The notes under the pieces: generated by a model
Seen by the model: only the letters and a program-made list of their open reading frames with translations
The model's database searches: none
Told to the model about the DNA's origin: nothing
Assembly (NCBI RefSeq): GCF_000302595.1
Contig: NZ_JH947126.1
Location: 401,223-465,222 of the forward strand
Source: Pedobacter arcticus A12
Lineage (GTDB): Bacteria > Bacteroidota > Bacteroidia > Sphingobacteriales > Sphingobacteriaceae
Reading direction: 5' to 3'
DNA length: 64,000 nt
Part shown: piece by piece, positions 1 through 6,957 of the stretch
Position numbering within the stretch: the stretch's first letter is position 1
Layout: every line of letters starts with the position of its first letter
Translations under genes and position numbers: made by a program

Positions 1-111
1 ATGGGTAATTACACCGTACTGATCTGCCTTGCCTTTTCTTGCAATTTCATCAGCCAAATAAAGATTGTCGTAGCTGTAAATCTTTTCGTATAAATTGTTT
101 ATCCTTTTCAT
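1..111 (-). CDS. DGR reverse transcriptase, N-terminal 37 codons (cut by window edge)
   Basis: An ATG at 111 on the minus strand opens a frame that stays open to base 1. The peptide begins MKRINNLYEKIYSY and includes ARKGKADQYGVI. This matches the conserved start of reverse transcriptases of diversity-generating retroelements, where a short helix with N-L-Y/W-x-K-I and a following A-R-K-G-K segment precede the palm. The gene lies 114 bp downstream of the template repeat on the same strand, the normal TR-RT arrangement. The catalytic domain (YxDD and the DGR-type SQ motif) is outside the window, so activity cannot be judged. No avd-type accessory gene is visible between the targets and the RT. 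Confidence 0.85.
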   Translation of the reverse strand, partial: MKRINNLYEKIYSYDNLYLADEIARKGKADQYGVITH

Positions 112-225
112 TTGCCTCTGTATATTGGCTCTTTTTCAACTTTTATAAGCTTACCAAAGCGCCCTCAACTTGTTGTTGTTTTTTGCCATGTGGGCATGGT
201 CTGTACCGCTTGTTTCTTTGTACAA

Positions 226-299
226 TGGTGGGAGCTGACATTCGTATTCGAGTTATCGTAGTCGTAGTCGTTGTACGAGAAACTGACACCTGAACCAAC
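226..299 (-). repeat. DGR template repeat (TR)
   Basis: This 74-bp segment aligns without gaps to 415-488 (offset 189) and 810-883 (offset 584). Read on the minus strand it contains 20 adenines, concentrated in TAC, AAC, GAC, GAT and AAT codons when set in the frame of the target genes. It differs from each copy at 14 positions: all 14 are template adenines in the 415-488 copy, and 13 of 14 in the 810-883 copy. It lies in a non-coding stretch between the second target gene (ends 333) and the RT start (111), as expected for a template copied through RNA and mutagenic cDNA. Confidence 0.92.
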
Positions 300-332
300 T
301 ACAGCTAAAGCGGTACACCACCGGTTAATTAA

Positions 333-728
333 TTACTCAATCACCATTAAATCGCGGTAAATTGATAAATGGGTTTTGCCCACGTACTTTGCAATTTCGC
401 TAGTAGGAAACACGAGGCGGGAGCCGACACCCGTAACCGAGCGATCGAAGTCGTAGACGTCGTACGAGAAACCGACACCCGAACCAACCTGCTCTGCTTT
501 GTCCTTTTCGTACGTTTCCATATCAAACCAAGGGAAGTATTTACGCTGATCGTAATCGTTCCAATCAATTTTTTTACCTTCCCATGAAGCTTGGCTGATG
601 ACAAAAAGTTTATAGCCCGCTATAATTGCTTTTCCGTGTGCTTCGGGCAATCCCGTTACTACCGGTAAAATTGCTGGGTCAATACCCACCGACTTTGCAG
701 CCGATTCAAAAGTTTCTAAATGCTTCAT
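333..728 (-). CDS. DGR target protein B (131 aa, variable C-terminal region)
   Basis: A small protein in two parts. The first ~70 residues are helical with no known fold. They lead to KYFPWF and then the GSGVGFS-x12-GVGSRLVF block that carries the variable repeat (VR-B, 415-488). The tail SEIAKYVGKTHLSIYRDL is shared in pattern with the upstream paralogue at 731-1189, which starts 2 bp beyond this gene. Short Bacteroidota phage proteins with a PWF...VGSRL(C/V)F...YAGKQF layout are common. The layout and the terminal RLVF resemble C-type-lectin-like DGR ligand-binding domains, but that fold is inferred. The varied residues are Y-D-V-Y-D-F-D-R-S-V-T between the two glycine-rich flanks. The protein is far shorter than a tail fibre. 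Confidence 0.85.
   Translation of the reverse strand: MKHLETFESAAKSVGIDPAILPVVTGLPEAHGKAIIAGYKLFVISQASWEGKKIDWNDYDQRKYFPWFDMETYEKDKAEQVGSGVGFSYDVYDFDRSVTGVGSRLVFPTSEIAKYVGKTHLSIYRDLMVIE
370..382. other. small hairpin downstream of VR-B
   Basis: TGGG-TTTTG-CCCA lies 33 bp past the 3' end (minus sense) of the variable repeat. In phage DGRs a hairpin or cruciform just downstream of the VR can assist target recognition. The stem here is only 4 bp and the element is inside coding sequence, so this is a weak suggestion. Confidence 0.25.
415..488 (-). repeat. DGR variable repeat VR-B
   Basis: Ungapped 74-bp match to the template at 226-299 with 14 substitutions, every one opposite a template adenine (changes to G, T or C). 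Codon examples, template to VR: AAC to GAC, GAC to GTC, TAC to TTC, AAC to CGC, AAT to GTT. The low-coordinate, GC-rich end (GTCGGCTCCCGCCT in minus sense) is identical in VR-A and is the likely initiation-of-mutagenic-homing region. The repeat encodes the variable loop of the 131-aa protein. Confidence 0.92.
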
Positions 729-730
729 TT

Positions 731-1189
731 TTAAAGAGTGAATAAGTCGTTATATAATTGAATGAACTGTTTGCCTGCATAAACAGCTAGCTCGCTACTT
801 TTGAACACGAGGCGGGAGCCGACACCCGAACTCGAGTAACCGTAGTAGTAGTCGTGGCACGAGAAACCGACACCCGAACCAACCGTTTTAAACCATGGAT
901 AATACTTGGCTTCGTTTGAGTTTCTCCAGTCGGGTTGCCAGCCTTGATTTAGGGCTTTGGCAACAATTCCTAATTTTGCATGTGCTACGCTTGCAATCAT
1001 ATCGGTATCCTGTCCGTTGTATGAAAGCAGGGTTTTCAAGTTATCAGATGCACCCACTATCTTAAGCGCATCGTCAAAAGTCTTTACCCTGTCCGTAATT
1101 TTTTCGGAAGCTTTTTTAATAGCCTCTACTTGCTCGGTAGTGAGTTGTATCTCTACCTCTTGGTTGTTGATGTTGATCGTTGTTTTCAT
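731..1189 (-). CDS. DGR target protein A (152 aa, variable C-terminal region)
   Basis: Paralogue of the 131-aa protein just downstream. Residues 1-75 form a charged helical N-terminal part. Then come QPDWRNSNEAKYYPWF and the GSGVGFS...GVGSRLVF block with the variable repeat (VR-A, 810-883), followed by SSELAVYAGKQFIQLYNDLF. Between the glycine-rich flanks the residues are C-H-D-Y-Y-Y-G-Y-S-S-S, quite different from the paralogue, although the surrounding nucleotides are almost identical. That contrast is what DGR diversification leaves. There is no signal peptide or membrane segment. Function is presumably ligand or receptor binding, but nothing in the sequence says which. The N-terminal halves of the two proteins are only distantly alike, so the duplication is not recent. 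Confidence 0.85.
   Translation of the reverse strand: MKTTININNQEVEIQLTTEQVEAIKKASEKITDRVKTFDDALKIVGASDNLKTLLSYNGQDTDMIASVAHAKLGIVAKALNQGWQPDWRNSNEAKYYPWFKTVGSGVGFSCHDYYYGYSSSGVGSRLVFKSSELAVYAGKQFIQLYNDLFTL
767..786. other. small hairpin downstream of VR-A
   Basis: CTGTTT-GCCTGCAT-AAACAG forms a 6-bp stem with an 8-nt loop, 23 bp beyond the 3' end (minus sense) of VR-A. It sits at the position equivalent to the hairpin after VR-B. It could be a target-site cruciform of the kind seen in phage DGRs. It is short and within codons, so it may be chance. Confidence 0.3.
810..883 (-). repeat. DGR variable repeat VR-A
   Basis: Ungapped 74-bp match to the template at 226-299 with 14 substitutions: 13 at template adenines and one G-to-T (a GAC codon of the template is TAC here). 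Seven of the adenine changes are identical to those in VR-B and lie in the glycine-rich flanks. The remaining six are private. The repeat encodes the variable loop of the 152-aa protein. Confidence 0.92.
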
Positions 1190-1239: not shown

Positions 1240-1503
1240 TTAAAAAAGTTTAATTGTAATTCCAGTACCTGACCGCTTTAAGCTGATTTGACATTGTGTC
1301 TCGCAGTGCAAATCCGCTAATGAAACTATTTGATCATGGTTAATTTCATTTGTATTGAAAGCAATTTGCTCCACATCTCCAGAGTCTTTTACCGCTCCCT
1401 TAATGTTCTGACTTGGAAAGTTGTTCAGCAAGGAGCGCATTACTTTAACTTTGTTTGCTTGAGTGATCATTGTATTGAATTTAATTTGTGGCAACATTAC
1501 CAT
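1240..1503 (-). CDS. hypothetical phage protein (about 87 aa)
   Basis: The open frame reaches 1515, but the first codons would fall inside the structured element at 1506-1547. The ATG at 1503 (MVMLPQIKFN) is therefore the better start. The protein has no recognised motif. It is soluble, with a mixed composition and two cysteines in LHCETQC. It sits between a small membrane protein upstream and the first DGR target downstream in the early operon. Its 5' end directly abuts the three-way-junction element, which could control its translation. Confidence 0.5.
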   Translation of the reverse strand: MVMLPQIKFNTMITQANKVKVMRSLLNNFPSQNIKGAVKDSGDVEQIAFNTNEINHDQIVSLADLHCETQCQISLKRSGTGITIKLF

Positions 1504-1505
1504 CG

Positions 1506-1547
1506 AACCCGCCACGGTCTCGAACCGTGGCGACTACCAGTCGGGTT
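1506..1547 (-). other. compact three-way-junction structure (two hairpins closed by a stem)
   Basis: All 42 bases fit one fold. An outer stem AACCC/GGGTT encloses hairpin GCCACGG-(7 nt)-CCGTGGC and hairpin GACT-(3 nt)-AGTC, with no unpaired base at the junction. It fills the gap between the stop of the 39-aa gene (1550) and the start of the 87-aa gene (1503). The 7-nt loop (TTCGAGA in minus sense) recalls a tRNA loop, but no acceptor or T-arm completes a tRNA. A transcript structure affecting translation of the next gene, or a processing or protein-binding site, is possible. Confidence 0.6.
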
Positions 1548-1670: not shown

Positions 1671-2324
1671 TTAGTTTGCGGTTATGCTGAATGTTAATTT
1701 TACTTCCTTGCCATTTTCGCCCGTAATACGTTGCCAGCCTCTTATGTACATGCTGGTACGGGTTTTAAATTGGGCATCAATAATGATGTCCACGCCCTCG
1801 GTAAACAGCGGGTTGTTTACCTTTTCTTTTTTAGAGTTCAGCTCGGCAACACGGGTTGGGTTTAGGTTACCTTTTTTGTCGGGCTTCATAAATGTGTTAA
1901 GCAGGTCGGCAAGTACGCCACGGTTGTCATCATCGGATGATAGGTTGGCAATCACTTCTTTAATTTTGGCAACTCCTGCGCCCTCTGTGCCGTCAAATCC
2001 TATGGTTTCATTGTAGCCCATGGTAATACTTGAATTTCCGTCTCTTGCGCTAAACGTGTGGCTGGCTTGCCCTTCCTTAATTCCGTACAGCTCATTTTTA
2101 AGGCTGATGATAGATTCAAAATCTTTGAAAACACTATCCACAACTTTGTTTTGCATTGCGCCAAAATCAACCAGCTCGGGTGTTTTGTTGGTTACCATCG
2201 TATCAATCATTTCTCTTAAAGCCACTTTGTCGGCTTCACGCTTTGCCTTTTCGGCTTTTTCTTCATTAGCCAGCTCGTTTTTTAGCTCGGCTTTTTGCTC
2301 GGGTGTTAAATCTGTGATTTTCAT
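1671..2324 (-). CDS. DUF3164-family phage protein (217 aa)
   Basis: Starts MKITDLTPEQKAELKNELAN with an extended charged helix, then a middle part with FEGI-like ISLKNELYGIKEG and a C-terminal sheet region ending WQRITGENGKEVKLTFSI. The layout and length fit DUF3164, a family found in the early region of Mu-like phages whose biochemical role is not established. The ATG overlaps the stop of the 54-aa gene upstream (TAATG), so the two are translationally coupled. Family assignment is by eye; the phage context supports it. Confidence 0.7.
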   Translation of the reverse strand: MKITDLTPEQKAELKNELANEEKAEKAKREADKVALREMIDTMVTNKTPELVDFGAMQNKVVDSVFKDFESIISLKNELYGIKEGQASHTFSARDGNSSITMGYNETIGFDGTEGAGVAKIKEVIANLSSDDDNRGVLADLLNTFMKPDKKGNLNPTRVAELNSKKEKVNNPLFTEGVDIIIDAQFKTRTSMYIRGWQRITGENGKEVKLTFSITAN

Positions 2325-3281: not shown

Positions 3282-3926
3282 TTAAATTTTACCGTGGTAA
3301 TCGTCTGCACCTTTTTGCCAGATGACGAATTGCCCGCCGTTTTCTCCTATGTATCTGCCCTTGCTGTAGGCAACAAATCCCTCTATAAATATTTTTAAAT
3401 CCGCATCGTACATTACGTCAATGGCCGCCTGTCCTTTTGGGTTATTGCCTTTCATCTGCGAAAACACAATGATCAACTTTCCCTTTTTCCGCAACCGTTC
3501 TTTAAAATCGTAGAACTTATTAAAGTTCATTCGGGTGTATTGGTAGCTGTTGATGATGACAACCCCAGGGCTTTTCGGCTTAGCCAATCGCTCTTCCAGT
3601 TGCTTCATGGTTTCTTTAGTCCATATCAACTTGCCCTTGGTGTTGCTATTATTGATGCCGTGACGGTTTAGCGCCTCTTGGATGGTCATACTGTCGCCCT
3701 CTTCCATATCGTTCACCACAATTCGTCTATCCAGTTTTGAAAGCTCTTTAACCAACTGCATCATAAATGCTCCCTTACCGTTGGTACTGTGGGCATAAAT
3801 AAACCACAACCCAGATGCTTCCGGTTTAGCAAATGCCGCCTGCCATTTTTCGCCCCATTCAATAACCTCATAGCTTTTATTTAAAATATCATCGGGAGTC
3901 CAAGCCCGCTTTATCCTTTCCGCCAT
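3282..3926 (-). CDS. P-loop ATPase of the transposition operon (214 aa)
   Basis: YAHSTNGKGAFMMQLVKEL resembles a RecA/AAA-type Walker A loop (NGKG in place of GKT/S), and SPGVVIINSYQYTR looks like a degenerate Walker B strand. A sensor-like strand KLIIVFSQMKGN follows, with SQ in the expected place. The protein is about the size of a single RecA-like core. Its ATG overlaps the stop of the MuB-like gene by one base, so the two ATPases are probably made together. It may be a second accessory ATPase for target selection or replisome loading. The loss of a canonical GKS/T lysine-serine pair means hydrolysis is uncertain. Confidence 0.6.
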   Translation of the reverse strand: MAERIKRAWTPDDILNKSYEVIEWGEKWQAAFAKPEASGLWFIYAHSTNGKGAFMMQLVKELSKLDRRIVVNDMEEGDSMTIQEALNRHGINNSNTKGKLIWTKETMKQLEERLAKPKSPGVVIINSYQYTRMNFNKFYDFKERLRKKGKLIIVFSQMKGNNPKGQAAIDVMYDADLKIFIEGFVAYSKGRYIGENGGQFVIWQKGADDYHGKI

Positions 3927-4825
3927 TAAGCAACCTTTTCCAAAAGCAATAAAATATCTGCTCTCCTAAGCCCTGCCAATCCTAAACCGCTCGCTAAACA
4001 GCTTTTTACTATTTTAGGAATCAGCTTTTTGTCTTCTACATTATGCTCCAAAACATCCGTTATTAATTTTCTGTAGAACATTTGCTTCTCTTGTGGGTCT
4101 ACCGGTGTAATACTCATATAGTTCCCGCCAAAACGGCTTAGTATCTCCCGATAACCCACTTTTTTTCTTTCGATACCTTTAGTAATGATTTCTTCTAATC
4201 CGTCTGCACCGATTAGATACCATCCACAAACCCACTCCGTTGCATTCCATAATGCTTTTAAGAATTTAAAAGACTTATAATCCAAATCACCCGCCTCGTC
4301 AATAATTACAATCGGTTTTATCAAAACATTGGCTAGGTAGTATTTAATGCGTTGCTTAACATCGTTGATACGTCCGTTGTTGTCAACGCCAAGTTTTGAC
4401 GCTAATTCCCTAACAAACAAATGCTCAGTTGGGCACTGGCTAGCATCAATCAAAAAGCAGTTTTCTATAGTCTTAGAGAGGTGTTTTGCGCTGGCTGATT
4501 TACCTATCTCGCAGTCGTCAACAAAAATCATTGCCTTTGAGTTCTCCTTACAAAAAAGAACATCGCTCTTAATTGAATCGTAAACCTCTGTTTTTGCGAA
4601 ATTCCATGCCTTTACATTATTATTAACGCCCAACCGCATTCCCATATCAATCCAGTGAGGTTCTTTGATAAGTTGCCCTGGTGCTTCTCCGCCTTTTAAT
4701 CTGCTCCAAATAGATGGGTTCATGCCATAGCTGACAGCAAAAGACTTATCATTTCCACCGTGTTTTTTGCGTTGCTCTTTTAAGGCGACTAATACTTTTT
4801 GTTTAAAATCTTCTGTTAAATTCAT
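3926..4825 (-). CDS. MuB-like transposition ATPase (299 aa)
   Basis: An N-terminal helix-turn-helix-like segment (residues 15-60) is followed by an AAA+ core: Walker A region VDDCEIGKSAS near residue 105, Walker B PIVIIDEAGDL near 170, and a sensor strand WYLIGADGL near 205. This is the layout of MuB, which binds target DNA and delivers it to the transposase. It overlaps the transposase gene by 4 bp (ATGA), the normal A-B coupling. The Walker A glycine pattern is relaxed, as in other MuB/IstB relatives. Confidence 0.85.
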   Translation of the reverse strand: MNLTEDFKQKVLVALKEQRKKHGGNDKSFAVSYGMNPSIWSRLKGGEAPGQLIKEPHWIDMGMRLGVNNNVKAWNFAKTEVYDSIKSDVLFCKENSKAMIFVDDCEIGKSASAKHLSKTIENCFLIDASQCPTEHLFVRELASKLGVDNNGRINDVKQRIKYYLANVLIKPIVIIDEAGDLDYKSFKFLKALWNATEWVCGWYLIGADGLEEIITKGIERKKVGYREILSRFGGNYMSITPVDPQEKQMFYRKLITDVLEHNVEDKKLIPKIVKSCLASGLGLAGLRRADILLLLEKVA

Positions 4826-6957
4826 CTGAAACGTGATTTAGTTGATGTGTCGAAACTTGTATTTGGTTTTAAAGGAGTTTCAAACTCGCTTTCAATTGGC
4901 GCCAACATTTCTGCGGGCTTATCCGCTGGGCGGTATTGCTCCACGTTTTTAAACTGTAGCCTGTTTTTTCGGGCTGGCTTAACTTCCTCATCAATAATTG
5001 TAATGCTGTTGATCTCTTTGGCGTTGCGGTTAATGTAGCCCTGTACTGTTGCCTCGTATGCGCTCATTATCGAGCGATAATCTTTATCACTATCCTTACT
5101 TTCTAACTTACCCCTGCTATATTCTAAATCACCCAGTAACTCGCAAATCTGTGTGCCCTGTAAATCATAAACCAAGGCTTTTAAAACATCGCCTTCATTA
5201 TCATCAAGCCAGTAAAGCTGTACCGTTTGCCCCTCAATTTTTTGCAGAATTTGGATAAGGATTTCTCCAAGAGCAACCTCCCCGTTAAAGCCGACTACTC
5301 TGTGCAGTCCCTGTAGAATGATACGCCCAGCTTTCATACTGCTTTTTTGAGAGAAACCGATATGCGGAAGAATGCCCGCCCAATTAATTGGCGTTAACTC
5401 TGGGTGCTGTTTTTCTAAGAACACATCCTCACGGGTCATGCCCGGGTGTAGTGTTTGGTTGCTGTGTAATTGCGAGTTCCAAAGTTGGATGGTGTCAATA
5501 GAACTCTTAACTATATCAACCTTCGGCATAAACTCCACCTTTTCAACTGCCCTTTGGTTATTTTCGCCTACGCTAAACGGGCGGCCAATCCAAGCGTGGT
5601 GTTTTTTATCAAATTCTTTTCCGTAACGTATCTGTCTCCAGTACTGCTCTATTGCTTTACCTCTTGCATTGTTTGCCTCAATCCTAACCTCGGTAAACAT
5701 TGAGCCTGGTGCTAGCAAATCATCTTTATAGGTACTGTTTAAAGAACTTTCACACTCTAATTCATACGGAAGACTTAAGCCCCAGCCCGCATAATTGCGA
5801 ACCATTTGGCGGTAAAACTCTTCTATAATTCCCTCTTTAGTTTCGCCATATACATAGGTTGTAATTACTTCACTACCTAAATCAGCACCGCAGTAAAACC
5901 ATAATCTTTTACCCTTAGCATATTCAAAAGGTGGCTTTCTATCATCAATGGATATCATAGTCCCTGCAAAATCAGGTTGTTTTAATTTATGGAATGGTAT
6001 GTAAAGCCCTTTAAAACGTTGCCTATCTCCACTACGTAAAGAGTGGCTAACAACTTTTAATTCCCATGCGCTTTGGTAAGCGTAAACAGTACTTTCGCTT
6101 GCGGGCTTGTAACACTCTAAAGTGTTGTCGTAAATCTCGCCAGCGTACTTAAAATTTGGGCTATCTTCATTTTTAGAATCTTTTCTAATGCCGATGCTAA
6201 TTTGACCGGCTAAAAACTGGTCGTATCTTTCGCTTACCTCGTTGTAGCTTGGCTTGTACGGAAGCTGTCCGGCGTAAATATCCTGCCATAAGCGTATCAT
6301 TTCTGGCGTTACTAATTGCGCATTGCTGTTGTTGTTACGTCCGTCAATAATGCTTTCGTAATTGTGGTCAATCCATCGGTTATAACGCTCTCGCAACATC
6401 TTTTCAGATTTTGGTAGCGAGTGGCTACAGCTGTGCTTAGCTTTCAGATAATCGTTAAAGGAAATACAGTCGCCCACTAAACTTGCCCAAATACCGGTGG
6501 CTCTGCCTCCACGGCTTTTTTTAGCCATTTCTCTAACAGTTTTAAGGCTTGCCAGTGCGCCCATCACGCTGGCGTTAATGGTGTAACGCTTCCGCTGTGC
6601 AGGCGTTAAAAATTCGCCATTGCTTTCAAACTGATATTTATCGTAAAATATACGGGCATCGGCATCCATCTTAAAAAAGTTTGCCATCGGGTGGGTTTCC
6701 TGCTTTGGCAACGAAAAGCGTTTAACAGCCATATCGTACCAATCGGATGGCATAGCGTCGATATCGATTAACACCTCGTTTCCGGGACCTCTGCCTTCTT
6801 TCAATCTAAAGCCAGGAACACGCAACGCCCTTTTTTCGTAAGCTGAATAGCTCAACACAGCCAAACTATCATCAGTACACTTATCAATATCAGATAAGAG
6901 GTAGCTCAGTTTGATGCCTATTTTGTCGTTGTAAAGTTCGTAAGCTGATGTGTTCAT
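4822..6957 (-). CDS. MuA-like DDE transposase (711 aa)
   Basis: Length fits MuA-class transposases. After a DNA-binding N-terminal half, an integrase-like core begins near residue 330. SIDDR (337-340) gives the first catalytic Asp, and NARGKAIEQYW (430-440) gives the catalytic Glu at 437. The stretch ELECESSLN (399-407), where the second Asp of the triad is usually found, has Glu instead. D359 in GADLGSE is an alternative, so the middle acid is unclear. The C-terminal part is basic and would contact the MuB-like partner. The gene opens the early operon after the Ner-like regulator region. Confidence 0.9.
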   Translation of the reverse strand: MNTSAYELYNDKIGIKLSYLLSDIDKCTDDSLAVLSYSAYEKRALRVPGFRLKEGRGPGNEVLIDIDAMPSDWYDMAVKRFSLPKQETHPMANFFKMDADARIFYDKYQFESNGEFLTPAQRKRYTINASVMGALASLKTVREMAKKSRGGRATGIWASLVGDCISFNDYLKAKHSCSHSLPKSEKMLRERYNRWIDHNYESIIDGRNNNSNAQLVTPEMIRLWQDIYAGQLPYKPSYNEVSERYDQFLAGQISIGIRKDSKNEDSPNFKYAGEIYDNTLECYKPASESTVYAYQSAWELKVVSHSLRSGDRQRFKGLYIPFHKLKQPDFAGTMISIDDRKPPFEYAKGKRLWFYCGADLGSEVITTYVYGETKEGIIEEFYRQMVRNYAGWGLSLPYELECESSLNSTYKDDLLAPGSMFTEVRIEANNARGKAIEQYWRQIRYGKEFDKKHHAWIGRPFSVGENNQRAVEKVEFMPKVDIVKSSIDTIQLWNSQLHSNQTLHPGMTREDVFLEKQHPELTPINWAGILPHIGFSQKSSMKAGRIILQGLHRVVGFNGEVALGEILIQILQKIEGQTVQLYWLDDNEGDVLKALVYDLQGTQICELLGDLEYSRGKLESKDSDKDYRSIMSAYEATVQGYINRNAKEINSITIIDEEVKPARKNRLQFKNVEQYRPADKPAEMLAPIESEFETPLKPNTSFDTSTKSRFR

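Follow-up and report, generated by a model that had tools for sequence, protein, structure and literature searches.

The window analysed here, by which we mean the whole stretch of 64,000 nucleotides from Pedobacter arcticus A12 (G000:C2:401223-465222 in a 4.2-Mb genome), carries at its left end a diversity-generating retroelement (DGR) with two small target genes. A non-coding template repeat (TR) stands beside a reverse transcriptase (RT) gene that bears the expected motifs, and two adenine-specific variable repeats lie inside open reading frames (ORFs); the identification of the locus as a DGR is certain. Its parts are as follows.

1..111, minus strand: 5' part of the RT gene (319 aa in all), which extends 849 bases left of the window (L002:9152-10111); RVT_1, E 1.8e-19
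L002:8875-9165, minus strand: 96-aa gene, left of the window, overlapping the end of the RT gene by 14 bp
226..299, minus strand: TR, non-coding, between target gene 2 and the RT gene (intergenic 112-332)
227..239, minus strand: candidate IMH*, the template version of the 3' target-site element (IMH), with two adenines; role inferred from BPP-1
333..728, minus strand: target gene 2, 131 aa, phrog_11581 (unknown function); AlphaFold2 model made
415..488, minus strand: variable repeat B, in the 131-aa target; 14/14 mismatches to the TR at adenines
416..428, minus strand: candidate IMH of variable repeat B, adenine-free; role inferred
731..1189, minus strand: target gene 1, 152 aa, phrog_11581 (unknown function), 2 bp before target gene 2; AlphaFold2 model made
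810..883, minus strand: variable repeat A, in the 152-aa target; 13/14 mismatches to the TR at adenines
811..823, minus strand: candidate IMH of variable repeat A, adenine-free; role inferred

The initial annotation of this stretch had reported three ungapped 74-bp copies on the minus strand (226-299, 415-488 and 810-883), the first of them a non-coding template of 20 adenines and 54 other bases that lies 114 bp before the RT start, and all of this was confirmed. Its mismatch counts were exact on recount: the repeat at 415-488 differs from the TR at 14 sites, 14 of them adenines (hypergeometric p 8.5e-11), and the repeat at 810-883 also at 14 sites, 13 of them adenines (p 9.3e-9), the odd one being a G to T change. 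The total of 27 adenine changes among 28 is therefore right as a count, but the changes are not independent, since seven of the 14 are identical in the two repeats; the union contains 18 different sites, including the one non-A site. Within the core (template positions 21-61) each repeat has nine changes, nine and eight of them at adenines. The RT expected to the left of the window, with YxDD and the DGR-type SQ motif, is there and intact, an unbroken frame with IGNYLSQ and YADD (phrog_1423, E 1.4e-125); it is 319 aa long rather than the predicted 350-400 aa. An absent RT, a broken RT frame or variation at non-A sites would each argue against a DGR, and none of these was encountered, since the RT is intact and near-identical relatives (below) vary almost wholly at template adenines.

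The 3' end of the template reads GTCAGCTCCCACC, while both variable repeats read GTCGGCTCCCGCC, and two of the shared changes fall here. These look like a fixed target-site (IMH) difference outside the copied tract rather than the result of hypermutation. In three near-identical relatives (L084, L085 and L087) the equivalent 3' element is constant while the core has been rewritten, and because the A/G differences have come through this recent rewriting unchanged, they are better read in this way. In the BPP-1 DGR, which targets the Mtd tail fibre, template and target likewise have different versions of a 3' element (PMC3240598; here and below, statements about cited papers refer to the portions of each source that were available). 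The window resembles BPP-1 in its TR/variable repeat/RT logic, its adenine mutagenesis and this IMH/IMH*-type difference. In BPP-1 a GC-rich hairpin lies behind the repeat of a tail target; in the window's family 20-28 residues follow the repeat in nearly all target rows, and no clear excess of hairpins was found: stems of at least 6 bp occur downstream of the repeat in 6.5% of 124 regions (55 nt) versus 4.9% of shuffles. If the candidate IMH lies outside the copied tract, 15 of the 20 adenines are core adenines, and the ceiling per target would therefore be 4^15 (about 1.1e9) DNA or 8.3e8 protein variants, with stop codons impossible; the 4^20 (about 10^12) first proposed is too high. The idea of a "fail-safe" template that deliberately lacks the invariant Gly and Arg codons was rejected, as the 3' A/G differences were not altered by rewriting in the same trio; the codons behind that idea are a template CAC that is Arg in 118/122 repeats and a template AGC that is Gly in 95/114 repeats and Cys in 19. 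The 5' Gly codons (template AGT, Gly in 95/98 repeats) are not accounted for by the IMH reading, and at this site one relative has a non-A change. No further repeat of the TR was found in an ungapped scan of the window plus 50 kb to its left, including a 1568-aa tail-fibre ORF, or in a blastn-type search of the genome, which is not exhaustive because it missed repeat A.

Relatives were gathered in two sets. The viral set comes from a scan of IMG/VR with the RT (best 80 of 468 relatives) and the genome-contig set comprises the best 80 of 135 relatives, many in named species; the two sets of 80 loci overlap and contain near-copies, and they jointly yield 112 loci with 228 distinct small-target repeats. 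Five of the 80 viral loci gave no repeats, each on a contig that begins too near the RT for repeats to be seen (fewer than 350 bases before it), and three of the remaining 75 were lost to a motif filter, which leaves 72 loci with parsed targets; six of the 80 genome-contig loci are without repeats. Adenine specificity is strong in both sets, with 1872 of 1928 mismatches at template adenines among 130 non-redundant repeats from the 80 viral RT loci and 1747 of 1779 among 124 repeat rows from 54 small-target genome-contig loci.

Comparison of isolates for A-site variation, which the initial annotation had suggested, gave the result expected of a DGR: near-identical relatives differ almost wholly at template adenines. 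L085 and L087 are identical over 5995 aligned bases but for 13 sites, every one of them a template adenine in a single repeat; L084 and L085 show 24 differences inside two repeats (22 at adenines) and one outside in 4079; and L084 and L087 show 11 inside one repeat (nine at adenines) and one outside. These three are metagenome contigs, in which assembly error is possible. Since the pairs differ in one or two repeats and are nearly identical elsewhere, the targets are rewritten separately. In the looser pairs among L065, L071 and L073 all 18-23 repeat differences are at adenines, yet 71-347 differences lie outside the repeats. The outcome of mutagenesis also seems to be sifted: in the 1203 AAY codons of the 228 distinct repeats (112 loci) the first and second bases depend on each other (chi2 153, p 2e-28), with an excess of Tyr, Thr, Leu and Gly and a shortage of Pro, Val, Cys and TCY-encoded Ser. 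This bias suggests selection on the protein, provided that each adenine mutates independently and with kinship and neighbour effects ignored.

The genes to the right of the DGR place it in the early region of a Mu-like prophage, as had been proposed. Read from right to left, the minus strand carries a MuA-like transposase, a MuB-like protein, an ATPase, further early ORFs (among them a protein with a DnaA-C-like helix-turn-helix and a DUF3164 protein) and a 91-aa ORF, followed leftward by target gene 1, target gene 2, the non-coding template and the RT, so that both target genes are co-directional with the transposition and other early genes. The early genes identified are as follows.

1240..1515, minus strand: 91-aa early ORF directly upstream of the targets, without a confident family
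1671..2324, minus strand: DUF3164 early gene, E 2.1e-10; phrog_846
3282..3926, minus strand: ATPase, phrog_6891, E 8.4e-57
3926..4825, minus strand: MuB-like transposition protein, phrog_296, E 2.9e-30
4822..6957, minus strand: MuA-like transposase, phrog_310, E 2e-26

Terminase, portal, head, tape measure, tail fibre and endolysin genes lie further left of the window. The element thus has both a MuA-type transposase and a MuB-type ATPase among its early genes and a structural gene set, and because the main structural genes were found left of the window the prophage looks complete, as judged by gene content with its ends unmapped.

The same cassette recurs in over 100 related loci, mostly in Bacteroidota, and consists mostly of two or three small targets, a short template, the RT and usually the 96-aa gene. 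In 75 of the 80 viral loci an A-specific template lies just before the RT, with repeats at conserved offsets. Two targets are present in 61, three in six and one in five of the 72 viral loci with parsed targets; wrong-frame ORF rows were seen for L035, L050, L057, L012, L039 and L053, and a few rows of this kind may persist in these counts. The 54 small-target loci from genome contigs have two repeat rows in 38 cases, three in 13, four in two and one in one; L115, one of the two with four, really has three, its fourth row being a repeat-to-repeat match, and the wrong-frame rows of L162 were omitted. Neighbouring targets are separated by a median gap of 6.5 bp (132 pairs). Named hosts include Flavobacterium, Chryseobacterium, Pedobacter, Sphingobacterium, Niastella, Emticicia and Dyadobacter, as well as two Ignavibacteria metagenome-assembled genomes. 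Among the 160 loci, all 153 full-length RTs have the SQ motif and YxDD. Behind the RT comes the 96-aa gene in 138/160 loci, some large-target DGRs (below) included; for its product neither a PDB sequence relative nor a convincing Pfam match was found, and no Avd-like Pfam match at E <= 0.01 was found in nine scanned ORFs after the RT. It is likely to be a DGR accessory protein that is not recognisably Avd. Three loci, L130 (Dyadobacter sp. CY261), L129 and L119, have extra target-family members whose repeats derive from the same template but lie 3-8 kb from it; L130 has four targets.

We scanned 129 of the 134 upstream ORFs of at least 200 aa in 33 genome-contig loci. The commonest PHROG annotations were repressor (12), MuA (10), MuB (10), the phrog_6891 ATPase (9) and phrog_846 (9); primases, helicases and recombination proteins also occur, and no structural-named family is present, among the best 25 of 100 PHROG families (for Pfam, the best 25 of 81 families were considered). 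By these matches, the cassette has early genes for neighbours in Mu-like phages; in other phages its neighbours are primase/helicase or integrase genes. Downstream, 105 of 144 ORFs were scanned and matched 21 Pfam families, with terminase domains in single ORFs.

The two target proteins of the window are paralogous (40% identical in alignment) and typical of their family, in which the median lengths are 134.5 and 154 aa and 20-28 residues follow the repeat in 142/145 target rows. An alignment was made of 119 of 122 candidates (the short-frame rows of L039 and L053 and the near-copy L071 were omitted, and the window's copies replaced those of L008). Its members share IKTFEDAC...NxGWxPDW...KYxPWF..SGxGFS, then the variable segment, then VGSRLCF and a C-terminal helical tail. 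In the AlphaFold2 models of both proteins the helical N-terminal part and the C-terminal helices are confident, and the repeat that separates them is of low confidence. At E <= 0.01 three Pfam families match, each weakly and each in one of the 119 members, and no Pfam DNA-binding domain is found among the 119 at that threshold; no PDB sequence relative of the two window targets was found, and the antirepressor-like phrog_15204 weakly matches the 131-aa target (E 0.027). A hydrophobic 19-mer occurs in only 4 of 271 target rows, two of these wrong-frame, and the targets are soluble-looking as predicted from their sequences.

A second kind of target is attached to related RTs. Eighteen RT relatives at 43-65% identity, many from Bacteroidales, have a large target, mostly with a longer repeat at its end: the target is 430-480 aa in 16 of the 18, and a 104-125-nt repeat lies at its C-terminal end in 15. 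Some small-target RTs are likewise at 57-65% identity. Profiles of the small and large targets are alike over 31 columns only, those of the repeat (hhalign probability 93.8%, E 1.7e-7), and because the likeness is confined to these columns one repeat module appears to be mounted on two apparently unrelated scaffolds. The 3' template sequence is also common to the large-target relatives. The comparisons made here do not establish that the large targets are C-lectins, and the small targets differ from C-lectin targets in that their repeat is not at the C-terminus of a large multi-domain protein. The target kind changes at least three times on a tree of 99 RT rows, which was built by a quick search and has many weak forks and three long outgroup branches; 10 of the 13 large-target rows fall in one supported group together with two small-target rows, and hosts from Bacteroidota to Ignavibacteriota have the same cassette architecture. 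The nearest annotated RTs, 50-59% identical (best 20 of 167 records), belong to DGRs of crAss-like and related gut phages.

Members of the small-target family also occur in annotated gut phages, where a single template serves two very different genes. When annotated phages were searched, the target of a relative found homologues in eight records (LoVEphage and kin, BT-TP2 and Versailles), and the window's 152-aa target found BT-TP2 only. The homologues match profiles of the N- and C-terminal parts of the small targets made without the repeat (E 5.5e-5 to 6.1e-21, database size 10,000), and these scaffold profiles give no match to the two large tail-type targets tested. The RT and template lie beside a tail gene in all three kinds, LoVEphage, BT-TP2 and Versailles (in BT-TP2 the large ORF gp44, which we have taken for the tail gene), and both this gene and the early homologue have a match to the template. 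The 121-nt match in LoVEphage has 23 A and three non-A mismatches in the early repeat, about 15 kb away, and 17 A and three non-A mismatches in the tail repeat, with no non-A mismatch more than six bases from an end of the match; for BT-TP2 and Versailles the best 50-nt windows have no non-A and 5-7 A mismatches in both genes. Two LoVEphage genomes (MW660583 and OY731433) differ at 20 positions in the 585-nt early gene, 20/20 at template adenines in the repeat. When six LoVE-type genomes are compared in every pairing, the early repeat varies at template adenines alone, and 0-14 differences lie outside it. In LoVEphage and BI-TP1 the early gene is surrounded by genes for RecT, HU, Holliday resolvase and methyltransferase, and in these two and Versailles it is far from the tail genes. 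In the BT-TP2 record (PQ571279.1) the early target is unannotated and runs across the end of the linear record, and in Versailles (ON453897.1, 10181-10762) it is annotated "tail protein", perhaps owing to the likeness of its repeat to tail-type repeats.

Distal second variable repeats have been described in inducible gut prophages, near counter-defence genes (PMC12629997, Nature 2025, which also discusses LoVEphage, not necessarily as one of its four species). In LoVEphage, BT-TP2 and Versailles the distal target is a member of the protein family to which the window's targets belong; however, those phages use one template for a tail and a distal gene, whereas the window has two early targets, no tail target that we could find, a cassette wholly among early genes and a template of 74 nt versus 121 nt in LoVEphage. 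The parallel with Hankyphage drawn in the initial annotation is apt in that both are DGRs in transposable phages of Bacteroidota, but it is loose: Hankyphage has a 117-bp template/variable pair, a tail-fibre target and an annotated Avd gene (PMC6199706, PMC12135933), and the window has two variable repeats of about 74 bp in small early proteins, a different, 96-aa gene after the RT and a tail-fibre gene in which no repeat of its template was found. Multi-target DGRs have long been known (PMC3521204, PMC6642488, PMC8143477, PMC10743442). Bacuni and tentaclin phages likewise have one template and two target genes (PMC8143477, PMC10743442), but their targets are C-lectin adhesin-like or receptor-binding, and those of the window are small, early and helical. 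A global survey of 2021 found annotated variable regions to be systematically associated with C-lectin folds, and the viral targets of three DGR clades to be mostly annotated as tail proteins (PMC8144416). Within the literature covered (subscription papers, preprints and supplements were outside its scope) we found neither a DGR dedicated to this early small-target family nor the link of the family to the distal repeats.

We think it probable, on balance, that this DGR serves to vary small early proteins with which the phage acts inside the host cell, and not a receptor-binding tail. The position of the targets, their scaffold and their lack of hydrophobic export-type segments support such an early intracellular aim, as far as it can be predicted from sequence. 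The mechanism we propose begins with induction, upon which the early genes, the RT and the template RNA would be expressed. The RT would copy the template with random bases at adenines, and the cDNA would replace the A-site core of one target, starting upstream of the A-free IMH; the template, which is without an IMH, would for that reason not be overwritten. Most likely each target would be a helical scaffold that presents a hypervariable segment of 25-30 residues rich in Tyr, Gly, Asp and Ser, and the target would bind a fast-changing host component met right after entry, for example a defence protein, so that progeny phages would bring new binders into the next cell. We can only guess at a counter-defence role from context; the published suggestion points the same way. 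A wider picture, which we hold tentatively and with rather less than even confidence, is that the whole DGR lineage has moved from varying surface contacts to varying contacts inside the cell. Two to four mostly adjacent binders would then share a template, like the chains of a combinatorial receptor, in search of host defence or take-over ligands, and the gut phages with one template for a tail and an early gene would be an intermediate stage, in which one source of mutagenesis feeds both entry and post-entry factors. Phage DGRs have been described chiefly as changers of host attachment; if an intracellular role is true, targeted hypermutation would also serve the fight after entry, and this family would supply hypervariable binders. 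The distal repeats of LoVEphage-type gut prophages are now tied to a recognisable protein family.

Several points weigh against an intracellular role. An early position is no proof of one, and the role as a binder is a prediction. A receptor-type function is possible because tail-type targets end in a stretch homologous to the hypervariable segment, and AlphaFold2 is unsure of the hypervariable segment itself, where ten-residue means fall as low as 50 (152-aa protein) and 54 (131-aa protein). No defence gene is consistently adjacent (C5 cytosine methylases make up 5/105 scanned downstream ORFs). The target family is uncommon in the host class, being present in 6/149 genomes and beside this RT in three. 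(G081:C28:14877-15263, in a genome without a close DGR RT, is a weak member of the family and possibly an orphan target.) Finally, the "working phage diversifier" of the initial annotation is borne out by recent A-site rewriting in relatives, but activity was not seen in the window's own prophage.

The main rival to early intracellular binders would have the targets bind receptors, either as virion-associated or as surface-acting proteins, with their genes in the early region by chance; the DGR would then still serve host range. The homology of their repeat to the C-terminal repeat of large tail-type targets (hhalign 93.8%, 31 columns), the fact that LoVEphage, BT-TP2 and Versailles use the same template for a tail gene too, and the "tail protein" label of the Versailles homologue all fit this idea; nonetheless we consider it unlikely, as the repeat-free scaffold profiles match the early homologues and not the two large tail-type targets tested, nearly all targets are without a hydrophobic segment, the cassette stands beside repressor, transposase and replication genes, and the homologues in LoVEphage, BI-TP1 and Versailles are far from tail genes. 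A slightly less likely proposal still makes the targets prophage regulatory or immunity proteins, for lysis/lysogeny control or exclusion of rival phages, diversified against changing repressors or invading phages. Their place among early control and replication genes and the antirepressor-like match of the 131-aa target (phrog_15204, E 0.027) would suit such proteins, but that match is weak and none of the 119 targets has a Pfam DNA-binding domain at E <= 0.01. The early genes of Mu are normally silent in the lysogen, which disfavours immunity at the lysogen stage.

A selfish or idling DGR, whose targets diversify to no purpose, might be suspected where the RT alone among the parts has a known function and the family occurs in just 6/149 same-class genomes, in three beside this RT; it is very improbable given the non-random residue use at AAY codons, the tight spacing of the targets (median gap 6.5 bp, 132 pairs) and an architecture that stays the same from Bacteroidota to Ignavibacteriota hosts. 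That the repeats are ordinary paralogous duplications with a chance adenine bias, as the 40% identity of the two targets might suggest, we regard as refuted for practical purposes by the 1872/1928 mismatches at template adenines and by the isolate comparisons.

Elsewhere in the same genome, three other RT-like matches (G000:C3:350811-358683) have 27-29% identity to the DGR RT, two of them with identical scores, and probably represent another RT class.

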